Shown: positions 22,605 through 28,246 of the stretch, piece after piece
How the letters are laid out: every line of letters begins with the position of its first letter
Position numbering within the stretch: the first letter of the stretch is position 1
Translations under genes and position numbers: made by a program
Virus record (IMG/VR): IMGVR_UViG_3300046616_000596
Location: 1-61,472 of that record
Origin: a virus
Direction: 5' to 3' (one strand)
DNA length: 61,472 nucleotides
Notes under the pieces: model-generated
Seen by the model: only the letters and a program-made list of their open reading frames with translations
Told to the model about the DNA's origin: nothing
The model's database searches: none

Positions 22605-22925
22605 TTAGTCCGCATCCATCGGCAGCGCCAGATGTTCGACAACACCCGTAAAGCGCTCGGTACCGTGATCACAGACAAGGTGCAGCTCGGGCTCATGGAT
22701 CGCGTCGCTGTTGATCCAGTGCGACACGGCCACGCGCACGGCGTCATCGCACTTAACGGCGTGATCCATACCTTCCGGCCAGTGGTTTGCGGGGAAGCAC
22801 AGGGCGTACTTCTGCTCGAAGGCCTGAACCGGCTTGCCAGTCCAGAGCGTGACGTAAGCGTAGCTGCCGTCAGTGATCACTTCGGCGAGCATTTTGCCGT
22901 CCTGGGCGGTGATGTTCATGCGCAT
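22605..22925 (-). CDS. Reverse-cassette protein, 106 aa
   Basis: MRMNITAQDGKMLAEVITDG has AAAGGA seven bases upstream and an extended -10 (TGCTACGAT) 24 bases upstream. The protein alternates strands (SYAYVTLWTGKPVQAFEQKY) and ends in a polar region. It opposes the rightward operon and fills the space before the methyltransferase. A rightward frame covering it (22581-22955) was rejected. Function unknown; an anti-defence role is only a guess. Confidence 0.6.
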   Translation of the reverse strand: MRMNITAQDGKMLAEVITDGSYAYVTLWTGKPVQAFEQKYALCFPANHWPEGMDHAVKCDDAVRVAVSHWINSDAIHEPELHLVCDHGTERFTGVVEHLALPMDAD

Positions 22926-22960: not shown

Positions 22961-25077
22961 AGCGAGACGCATGCACCTTCGAGCTCGACTTAGGCAATGA
23001 GCTGATTATCGACAACTTCGCGGGCGGCGGTGGCACGAGCACCGGTCTTGAGTTGGCCTTCGGTCGTCCGGTCGACATTGCGATCAACCACGACCCCGAA
23101 GCGCTGGCGATGCACGCCATCAACCATCCGCATACGAAGCACCTGTGCGAGAGCGTGTGGGACATTGATCCGATTGAAGTCACCGGCAATCGCCCAGTCG
23201 GCCTGGTCTGGCTGTCACCTGATTGCAAGCACTTCAGCAAAGCCAAGGGCGGCAAGCCGGTCGAGAAGAAGATTCGCGGCCTTGCATGGGTGACGCTGCG
23301 CTGGGCGGCCAAGTGCAAGCCCAGGGTCATCATGTTGGAAAACGTCGAAGAATTCAAGACGTGGGGGCCGCTGCTGATCGAAGCCGACGGCAGCGCAAAG
23401 CCGGATCCGGCGAAGCGCGGCAAGACGTTCGACAGCTTCGTGCGCCAGCTGCGCGCCCATGGCTACTCTGTGGATTACCGCGAGCTGCGCGCCAGCGACT
23501 ACAACACGCCCACGATCCGCAAACGCTTCTTCATGGTCGCCCGCCGCGATGGACTGCCGATCTGCTGGCCAGAGCAAACCAATGGCGCTCCGACATCGCC
23601 CGCCGTCCTGGCTGGTAAGCAGCGCCCGTGGCGCACGGCCGCAGAGTGCATCGACTGGTCGCTGCCATGCAATAGCATCTTTGAGCGCAAGAAGCCGCTG
23701 GCCGAGGCCACGCTGCGCCGCATCGCCAAGGGAATCATGCGCTACGTGGTCGAGGCTGATCAGCCTTTCATCGTCGGCCAGGGTGGTCCGATCTACTCCG
23801 GCAAGCCCGTTTCGACAGAGCAACCATTTGGCACGCTGACGACCGAGAACCACCGCGCCCCGGTCGTGCCGAGCATCGTACCTGTGACGCACCAGGGTGG
23901 TGACCGCAACGAATCGGTGAACGAGCCGTTCCGCACGATCACAGGCGCGCAGCGGGGTGAGAAGGCTCTCGCACAGGCAACGCTCGTGCCTGTATCGCGG
24001 GCTGCTGAGGTGGCCGCATTTCTGACCGAACATGCCAACGCCAGCAATCAGCGCGTAATGCCTGCCGACGAACCGTTGCGCACTATCTGCGCCCAGGTCA
24101 AGGGTGGACACTTCAGCATGGTCTCAGCGGAGCTGGCGCCATTCGTTATGACGAATACAACCGGCCACCTGGGCGCTGAACTCGGTTCGCCGATCCCGAC
24201 CGTAACCTCCGCTGGAAATCAAGCCCTCGTATCCGCGCACATCACAAAATTCCGGACGGGCGCCACCGGCAGCGACCTTGCCGACCCGCTGCCGACCATC
24301 ACGGCCGGACCGAAGGAGAACCCAGCTGGCGCAGCGCACGCGCTGGGCATTGTGACGGCTCACATTCAGCGCGACATGGGCCAGAGTGTCGGCCATGCCG
24401 CTGACACTTCTCTGGGTACGGTGACGGCTGGCGGCGGCGGAAAATCAGCCCTAGTGACTGCCAACCTCATCCACATGGGGCACGGCGAGGGTGCCGGCGG
24501 AGGTAAGCGCTTCAGCCACGGCATTCGCGATGTGGAACAGCCTCTGAACACTGTCACAGCGAGCGGCGCTGCCGGCGCTGTGGTAGCCAGTACGTTAGTG
24601 AAGCTGCGCGGTACAAGTAACGCTGCTGCTGCCGATGAACCGATTGGCACGATCAGCGCCCAAGGGCAACACCACGCCGAGGTGCGCGCCTTCCTGGTCA
24701 AGTACTACGGCACGGACCAAGACCCGCGCCTGGAAGAGCCGCTACACACCGTGACCACGAAGGACCGCTACGGCCTTGTGAAGATTCAGGGCGTGGACTA
24801 TCAGATCGTGGACATCGGCCTGCGCATGCTGGCGCCGCACGAGCTGTACCGCGCCCAAGGCTTCCCGACGCACTACATCATCGACGAGATTCCTGACCCG
24901 GCGATCCTGTTTAAGGACGGTCATCAGGCCGACGGCGATCCACTGCTCTTGCCGCGCGTGCCGCTCACAAAATCGTCGCAGGTTCGGATGTGCGGCAACA
25001 GCGTGTGCCCGCCGTTATCCGAAGCCCTGGTGCGCGCTAACTTCATGCACGAGCATGAGATTGCGAAGGTGGCGTGA
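22957..25077 (+). CDS. DNA cytosine-5 methyltransferase with tandem-repeat region, 706 aa
   Basis: The C5-methyltransferase motifs are present: motif I DNFAGGGGTSTGLE (residues 19-32), catalytic Cys90 in SPDCKHFS (motif IV), ENVEEF near 128 (motif VI), and YNTPTIRKRFFMVARR (motif VIII). Residues ~286-608 hold about nine copies of a unit like D/E-xPLxTVTAxGxxxLVxAxL. Motif IX/X-like sequence follows (HELYRAQGFP, CGNSVCPPLSEAL). It would methylate cytosines and could protect phage DNA from host restriction. I see no partner endonuclease nearby. The 5' end overlaps a reverse-cassette promoter. Confidence 0.92.
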   Translation: MKRDACTFELDLGNELIIDNFAGGGGTSTGLELAFGRPVDIAINHDPEALAMHAINHPHTKHLCESVWDIDPIEVTGNRPVGLVWLSPDCKHFSKAKGGKPVEKKIRGLAWVTLRWAAKCKPRVIMLENVEEFKTWGPLLIEADGSAKPDPAKRGKTFDSFVRQLRAHGYSVDYRELRASDYNTPTIRKRFFMVARRDGLPICWPEQTNGAPTSPAVLAGKQRPWRTAAECIDWSLPCNSIFERKKPLAEATLRRIAKGIMRYVVEADQPFIVGQGGPIYSGKPVSTEQPFGTLTTENHRAPVVPSIVPVTHQGGDRNESVNEPFRTITGAQRGEKALAQATLVPVSRAAEVAAFLTEHANASNQRVMPADEPLRTICAQVKGGHFSMVSAELAPFVMTNTTGHLGAELGSPIPTVTSAGNQALVSAHITKFRTGATGSDLADPLPTITAGPKENPAGAAHALGIVTAHIQRDMGQSVGHAADTSLGTVTAGGGGKSALVTANLIHMGHGEGAGGGKRFSHGIRDVEQPLNTVTASGAAGAVVASTLVKLRGTSNAAAADEPIGTISAQGQHHAEVRAFLVKYYGTDQDPRLEEPLHTVTTKDRYGLVKIQGVDYQIVDIGLRMLAPHELYRAQGFPTHYIIDEIPDPAILFKDGHQADGDPLLLPRVPLTKSSQVRMCGNSVCPPLSEALVRANFMHEHEIAKVA

Positions 25078-27309: not shown

Positions 27310-27419
27310 ATAACCCGGTCCAGCGCCGCCTTGAATACATGGCCCACACCGTCTACTGCAGGCTTCTTGCAAGGTGCGGCGTGCGCAATCTCGAATCCAT
27401 CCAGAAGCACGAAATATGA
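27306..27419 (+). CDS. Small protein, 37 aa
   Basis: MNNPVQRRLEYMAHTVYCRL is a short basic helical protein, coupled by ATGA overlaps to the HNH gene before it and the replication gene after it. No family is known to me. Confidence 0.45.
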   Translation: MNNPVQRRLEYMAHTVYCRLLARCGVRNLESIQKHEI

Positions 27420-28246
27420 CAAATGGCATCGACTGGTTCCGCTGGCATCACGGCAGCGTGACCGATCCGAAATTCCAACTAATCGCCAGCAAGGCCAGCG
27501 TGCGCCTGGGCGACGTGATCGCGGTTTGGGGCTTCCTACTTGAGAAGGCGAGCGCCAACCTGGTGCGCGGCGAGTACGGCGCCATCGATCTCGAGACGGT
27601 GGATTTCATGCTGGGCGCGGGTGAGGGCGCTACAGCGCGAATTATGCAAGCAATGAATGATCGCGGCCTGCTCGAAGCGGGCCGAATTGAAGCGTGGGAG
27701 CGACGTCAGCCGAAACGCGAGCGGGAAGATAGTACGGCGGCAGACCGCAAACGCCAACAACGAGCACGAGAAGCCGAAGAAAGCCAAGTCACACCATGTG
27801 ATGACGATGTCACGCCATGTCACACCACGTCACACCAAAAAACACCCAGAGTAGAGAAGAGTAGAGAAGAGAAGAAGGAAGGAACTAAGCCTAAGGCTAA
27901 GCGAGATGTAGAGGCCTCCGGCTCACGCCTTCCGCCCGACTGGCATCCATCCGCCGAAGACACGCTTTTCTGCAAGACCGAGCGCCCAGACCTTCGCCCT
28001 TCTGAGGTCGCCAAGCGGTTCTACGACCACTGGATCGCAAAGCCAGGCAAGGATGGGCGTAAGGCGAACTGGTCGGCCACGTGGCGCAACTGGGTGCGCA
28101 ACGAGAAGCAGCAGCCGGCGGCGCGCGGCTCCGCTGGCGCACCGGCCGGCACCGTGTACGACCAAAGCATGGCCGCCGCCGCGCGCGCCAAAGAGAAAAT
28201 TTTCGGCCCGGCAGCCGACGAAGGAGTAATCGATGCAACAGAGTGA
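27416..28246 (+). CDS. Replication initiation protein (lambda O/DnaT-like), 276 aa
   Basis: The N-terminal ~100 residues are a winged-helix-like domain (GIDWFRWHHGSVTDPKF, SKASVRLGDVIAVWGFLLEK). The middle is a charged linker whose DNA carries iterons. The C-terminal domain (DWHPSAEDTLFCKTERPDLR, KANWSATWRNWVR) resembles DnaT/phage replication domains. It would bind the origin inside its own gene and recruit a helicase loader. I chose ATG at 27416; an upstream ATG at 27374 is less likely. Confidence 0.8.
   Translation: MTNGIDWFRWHHGSVTDPKFQLIASKASVRLGDVIAVWGFLLEKASANLVRGEYGAIDLETVDFMLGAGEGATARIMQAMNDRGLLEAGRIEAWERRQPKREREDSTAADRKRQQRAREAEESQVTPCDDDVTPCHTTSHQKTPRVEKSREEKKEGTKPKAKRDVEASGSRLPPDWHPSAEDTLFCKTERPDLRPSEVAKRFYDHWIAKPGKDGRKANWSATWRNWVRNEKQQPAARGSAGAPAGTVYDQSMAAAARAKEKIFGPAADEGVIDATE
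27788..27837 (+). other. Phage replication origin (four iterons inside the O-like gene)
   Basis: GTCACACCAT, GTCACGCCAT, GTCACACCAC and GTCACACCAA begin at 27788, 27809, 27819 and 27829, so spacing is 21, 10 and 10 bases (one or two helical turns). A purine-rich run (27842-27883) follows. The arrangement copies lambda ori, which lies in gene O. Confidence 0.7.

Follow-up and report, generated by a model that had tools for sequence, protein, structure and literature searches.

Multispecific methylases, each with few recognition domains, have been known chiefly as an oddity of a small number of Bacillus phages, and the HsdS subunits of Type I restriction systems are known to shift specificity by exchange of recognition-domain cassettes. 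In temperate Bacillus phages of the SPbeta group, several target recognition domains (TRDs) are arrayed in one methyltransferase and protect against many restriction-modification systems (review PMC12707154; PMC8936443). Here we analyze P0001, a solitary DNA cytosine-C5 methyltransferase encoded in the IMG/VR virus record IMGVR_UViG_3300046616_000596 (positions 1 to 61,472; this whole stretch of 61,472 nucleotides is referred to as the window), which carries nine diverged tandem units between motifs VIII and IX, the position of the TRD in C5 methyltransferases. We consider it probable that P0001 is a multispecific anti-restriction enzyme, in which one catalytic core would serve nine target-recognition units that behave as exchangeable cassettes. 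Like the SPbeta-group enzymes (M.SPRI, M.Phi3TI, M.SPBetaI, M.H2I) and M.(phi)BssHII, it is a phage-borne solitary C5 methyltransferase; it further shares with them the small domains in tandem (putative in P0001) that separate motif VIII from motif IX and have a T(L/V/I) core each, the exchangeability of these domains as modules between relatives, seen here as whole-unit insertions, deletions and swaps, and the proposed role in protection from restriction (PMC8936443; PMC12707154). In contrast to these enzymes, the core belongs to a different lineage (motif IV with PDC; 25% identity to the core of the phi3T methylase), and instead of a few domains the P0001 family has 4-12 units from a pool of about 20 types that extends across Pseudomonadota and Bacillota. 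M.HhaI and M.HaeIII have the same catalytic core fold and motif order, but a single recognition domain in place of the array, whereas in HsdS, which has the cassette exchange in common, two domains define one bipartite site and adenine methylation lies with a separate subunit, unlike the one polypeptide with many units found here. The multispecific phage C5 methylase is already known in kind, while what is apparently new is how long the arrays are, how few types make up the shared pool, how rarely a type is duplicated and how broadly the family is distributed, as we found no description of these features in the literature searched (most subscription journals lay outside the search). The records of phrog_116, phrog_23072 and phrog_13621, as well as the prophage and plasmid entries named 'DNA cytosine methyltransferase', belong to the same family and, in the entries inspected, are annotated as methyltransferases with no mention of the array.

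An initial annotation of the window had placed about nine repeat units in the target region of the methyltransferase, and nine units were confirmed by holding out one at a time: in 9/9 cases the profile of the other eight scores the remaining unit above all 500 shuffles. At a threshold of more than 5 bits, the family profile recovers about 1,346 units in 161 homologues, as compared to 0 in 805 shuffled proteins. Of the span 23813-24780 originally assigned to the units the end is correct, but the first unit begins earlier, at about 23764. The PxxT cores begin at residues 290, 324, 373, 412, 444, 485, 529, 562 and 595 of P0001 and are thus spaced by 34, 49, 39, 32, 41, 44, 33 and 33 residues, without strict periodicity. 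The description as a regular array needs correction: spacing ranges between 32 and 49 residues, divergence among the units is high (the best identity between any two of them is 37%) and no tandem repeat is visible at the DNA level. The proposed repeat pattern does not hold to the letter throughout, as unit 6 carries S for P (DTSLGTVTA). Across the 1,459 units of 181 complete homologues, near-invariance is confined to P (98%) and T (97%) of the PxxT[VIL] core, followed by V, I or L in 96% of units. Presence of the core in 97-98% of units is expected if each unit is a functional recognition domain. The threonine of the recognition domain is Thr250 in M.HhaI, and the structure of the T250G mutant is among the structure matches of the core. 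As the array lies in the recognition-domain position and each unit has the threonine core that typifies recognition domains, it is simplest to read every unit as one such domain, and it is on position and core motif that we regard the units as putative recognition domains. Recent tandem duplication within this gene was considered as the origin of the array and rejected, because no two units of P0001 are more than 37% alike, whereas counterparts of the same type in other proteins reach 82-100%.

Clustering resolves the units into about 24 discrete types, A-X (19 to 40 depending on the cut-off), and the array in the window has the order G-J-I-K-E-F-M-A-B. Median identity inside the common types is 46-77%, with units of the same type from different phages usually half to three quarters alike, and ten types are common to Bacillota and Pseudomonadota. 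Types A and B are near-universal and usually terminate the arrays; other type pairs often occur in both orders (31 of the 49 frequent type pairs, at a looser cut-off). The same type is almost never used twice in one protein, which suggests that each unit recognizes its own DNA sequence. In a sample of 86 proteins with cores less than 90% identical, a single within-protein duplicate was observed, compared to 141 ± 8 expected from shuffling units between proteins. Stricter cut-offs give 0 duplicates against 121-128 expected, and looser clustering (cut 0.70), which merges A with E and C with K, gives 64 against 176, the direction being the same at every cut. A cluster-free test agrees in direction, with the closest within-protein unit pair exceeding half-maximal similarity in 5% of real and 77% of random arrays. 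Where cores are at least 95% identical, none of the 526 unit differences concerns a type that the partner already has, against 65% expected; these differences come from 160 protein pairs, which are not independent observations. Taken together, the data have the appearance of interchangeable specificities, pooled, non-redundant and under selection to differ.

Two alternatives are to be judged against this near absence of repeated types. In the first, a binding scaffold that the initial annotation had also put forward, the array would bind DNA or protein (for processivity, for dimerization or as a decoy for a restriction or defence protein), with specificity residing in one unit or in the core. 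The length and repetitive character of the array would suit such a role, as would the near-universal terminal units A and B, the latter directly preceding motif IX, at the place that the domain would occupy in an enzyme with just one. Repeated use of the same unit is, however, what either a scaffold or a code like that of transcription activator-like effectors (TALEs) predicts; a scaffold would tolerate or even favor duplicates and would have no need for some 20 types each conserved across phyla, nor would it call for an array in the recognition-domain position in which nearly every unit keeps PxxT[VIL]. Since types are essentially never repeated and each keeps its own conserved sequence, we consider the scaffold unlikely. 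In the second alternative, the units would jointly read one long or degenerate site in a TALE- or Pumilio-like manner, and any change to the array would alter that site. Short tandem units with a common conserved core and variable order and content are compatible with such a composite reader, but a base-per-unit code would reuse units often, in contrast to the one duplicate seen here. Types A and B, moreover, stay near the end while others come and go, and the constraint on each type is the same whatever its neighbors, all of which renders joint reading of one site quite improbable.

Recognition of a single fixed site would also predict a fixed array, and the initial annotation had named a fixed repeat number as the observation that would speak against its proposal of a modular, evolvable specificity. 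The 181 complete homologues have between 4 and 12 units per array (1,459 in total; four units in two proteins, seven in 51, nine in 33 and twelve in three). Close relatives differ by in-frame insertions or deletions of whole units, 96-129 nucleotides (nt) in length. The homologues L040 and L087, with a core DNA identity of 98.4%, differ in content by the single unit L, and L208 and L246 by 96 nt with unit K; between L013 and L020 there is an in-frame 129-nt insertion with unit M, and between L031 and L099 one of 111 nt with unit K, in both cases together with replacement of the first unit. Single units that are 93-100% identical at the DNA level adjoin cores that are just 72-81% identical, from which it follows that units and cores recombine. 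The proportion of pairs with differing arrays is 1/12 at a core DNA identity of 97-99%, 7/13 at 95-97%, 30/45 at 92-95% and 130/143 at 88-92%. With its variable unit number and the swapping of whole cassettes among relatives, the family thus supports the modular, evolvable reading as originally proposed, the separate specificities themselves being putative.

Such rapid turnover of units could also mean that some of them work while the rest are remnants of recombination, leaving the enzyme effectively mono- or bispecific. The ratio of nonsynonymous to synonymous substitution rates (dN/dS) is 0.05-0.27 per unit type and 0.13 for the core, values that are approximate with dS near 1. All types tested are far below 1, and purifying selection on every one of them is about as strong as on the core, which implies that each unit matters and leaves partial function a slim chance. 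For the multispecific enzyme that we favor, we propose that the cytosine flipped out of each short target sequence is most likely brought to the shared active site by the unit specific to that sequence, the units docking in turn. One solitary enzyme would in this way protect the phage DNA against several restriction enzymes. The cassettes belong to a pool of roughly twenty types common to phages of many hosts. Entire units are gained, lost and replaced by recombination at a rate well above that of core divergence, and no type is acquired a second time while it is present. We are evenly divided over a broader version of this proposal, according to which a pan-phage set of about twenty exchangeable cassettes provides non-redundant arrays of up to twelve specificities, the content of which turns over at about 5% core divergence and tracks the restriction systems met, as a combinatorial, evolvable anti-restriction shield. 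A shield of this size would, to our knowledge, be larger than that of any multispecific methylase.

Several observations weigh against the proposal that the units are recognition domains of separate specificity. AlphaFold gives no fold for the array, with a predicted local distance difference test (pLDDT) score below 50 at residues 289-615, and for both P0001 and a short five-unit homologue the core is modeled well while the array is mostly below 50, probably because the unit types are permuted in the alignment. The unit profile has no match among solved structures at E values up to 10, and the hidden Markov model of the units has none among SPbeta-group proteins (SPbeta and SPR domains). With hhalign, an alignment to the last SPR recognition region (330-366) is in register but marginal at 17.8, where 99 of 100 column shuffles score at most 16.4 and one aberrant shuffle reaches 132.9, so that sequence kinship of the units to SPbeta recognition domains is only suggestive. 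To assign target sequences, palindromic 4- and 5-mers were tested for altered abundance in matched pairs of phages with and without a given type, which yielded nothing after correction (best p=0.0019 in 432 tests, with a Bonferroni limit of 1.2e-4). It is probable rather than established that the DNA sequence read differs from unit to unit and that the array confers an anti-restriction benefit. In addition to the dependence among close pairs mentioned above, the absence of duplicates could in part stem from deletion by recombination between like units. Purging by recombination between identical copies is, however, not a ready explanation, because same-type units from different phages are usually only half to three quarters alike; redundancy of function, in contrast, explains the rule readily.

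The catalytic core marks P0001 as a DNA cytosine-C5 methyltransferase, which very probably methylates DNA. Its ATG start is common to the homologues, as MKRD, and the protein matches Pfam family PF00145 (E=1.2e-23, residues 17-202, 84.5 bits against a cut-off of 22) and phrog_116 of PHROG (E=8.8e-98). Motif conservation was scored on the columns of 98 homologues (Table 1). The FxGxGG loop of motif I, which binds S-adenosylmethionine (SAM), is present as DNFAGGGGTSTG and is near-invariant, and motifs VI, VIII, IX and X are in canonical order with the conserved columns ENV, RxRxF, RMLxPxEL and GNSV, the motif X core reading QVRMCGNSVCPP. Motif IV has the sequence SPDCKHFS, in which a variant PDC replaces the usual PPC and the catalytic cysteine is invariant. 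Using the model of a 530-residue homologue, Foldseek matches the core fold to DNMT1, M.HhaI and M.HaeIII at E values of about 1e-10. The second sequence match in the PDB is CmoX (8YF3), which raises the alternative that carboxymethyl instead of methyl is transferred. In CmoX, an arginine replaces the motif X asparagine (N304 of M.HhaI) to bind carboxy-SAM (PMC12783734), whereas P0001 keeps the counterpart of M.HhaI Asn304 as N681, invariant in the homologues and as expected for ordinary SAM; motif IV, too, is SPPC in CmoX and SPDC here. With the motif X asparagine kept, carboxymethylation of the CmoX type is very unlikely, verging on the negligible. The homologue of Pseudomonas phage Lana (L167:247-3390) is 1,047 residues long and contains an intein-like insert of about 340 residues in motif IV, which splits the motif exactly at the active-site cysteine (SPDC...VVHNCTHFS).

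Table 1. Positions in the window of the P0001 gene, its catalytic motifs and the putative recognition units; invariance refers to the 98 homologues, and bits are unit profile scores.
Feature	Position	Strand	Evidence
Solitary DNA cytosine-C5 methyltransferase P0001, 706 aa	22957..25077	+	one open frame
Motif I, SAM binding, IIDNFAGGGGTSTG, residues 17-30	23005..23046	+	near-invariant columns
Motif IV, catalytic cysteine, SPDCKHFSKAKGG	23215..23253	+	S87 P88 D89 C90 invariant
Motif VI, ENVEEF	23338..23355	+	E128 N129 V130 invariant
Motif VIII region, IRKRFFMVARRDG (IRKRFFMV)	23515..23553	+	R188, R190, F192 invariant
Unit 1, type G, PFIVGQGGPIYSGKPVSTEQPFGTLTTENHRAPVVPS	23764..23874	+	17.5 bits; type G in 100 proteins
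Unit 2, type J, IVPVTHQGGDRNESVNEPFRTITGAQRGEKALAQATL	23875..23985	+	20.7 bits; type J in 74 proteins, median identity 77%
Unit 3, type I, EHANASNQRVMPADEPLRTICAQVKGGHFSMVSA, preceded by a short insert	23986..24135	+	29.6 bits; type I in 90 proteins, median identity 77%
Unit 4, type K, APFVMTNTTGHLGAELGSPIPTVTSAGNQALVSAHI	24136..24243	+	22.8 bits; type K in 63 proteins
Unit 5, type E, TKFRTGATGSDLADPLPTITAGPKENPAGAAHALGIVTAHI	24244..24366	+	19.0 bits; type E in 121 proteins
Unit 6, type F, QRDMGQSVGHAADTSLGTVTAGGGGKSALVTANL	24367..24468	+	28.9 bits; type F in 114 proteins
Unit 7, type M, IHMGHGEGAGGGKRFSHGIRDVEQPLNTVTASGAAGAVVASTL	24469..24597	+	21.2 bits; type M in 50 proteins
Unit 8, type A, VKLRGTSNAAAADEPIGTISAQGQHHAEVRAFL, usually penultimate	24598..24696	+	31.3 bits; type A in 162 proteins
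Unit 9, type B, VKYYGTDQDPRLEEPLHTVTTKDRYGLV, usually last, directly before motif IX	24697..24780	+	23.1 bits; type B in 149 proteins
Motif IX, LRMLAPHELYRAQGFP	24820..24867	+	R623 M624 L625 E629 L630 invariant
Motif X, QVRMCGNSVCPPL	24979..25017	+	C679 G680 N681 invariant

Relatives of P0001 occur in hundreds of phage and plasmid records, with Gram-negative, Gram-positive and actinobacterial hosts. Distant members include the enzymes of Myxococcus phage Mx4 (six units) and of ZF40 (eight units), as well as the 'DNA methylases' of Gordonia, Mycobacterium and Arthrobacter phages (L251, L252 and L253), which have a core identity of about 25% and three to five units; some units of the latter three resemble types A/Q and B. 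The plasmid collection contains 452 records with relatives, 86 of them from Acinetobacter, and some of these plasmids may be phage-plasmids. The architecture of the multispecific enzymes here characterizes a widespread family, in which arrays reach 12 units, the types come from a limited shared pool and duplicates are almost strictly avoided. Should every type prove to have a target of its own, the specificity of the entire family would follow from about 20 decoded types; this would also reveal the way in which phages pre-empt the restriction systems that their hosts possess, and would provide ready plug-in recognition domains for programmable deposition of 5-methylcytosine. Natural pairs that differ by close to a single unit (L040/L087, and L031/L099 near unit K) put the question of one target per unit within reach.

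The window itself represents a temperate tailed phage, with genes for an integrase, recombination exonucleases, replication and NinG-like proteins, terminase, portal, protease, capsid and tape measure. No partner restriction endonuclease was seen among the annotated neighboring open reading frames (ORFs), part of the ORFs in the window being annotated. Homologues in prophages of E. coli chromosomes (H182-H184) adjoin a phage N-6-adenine methyltransferase, and cytosine and adenine modification may be paired there. A small divergent ORF on the minus strand (22605-22922, MRMNITAQDGKMLAEVITDG...) begins near the start of the methylase gene and looks like a real gene. Short low-complexity tandem repeats of 10 and 5 bp are found at 27784-27875, within the ORF of a replication protein (27374-28246).
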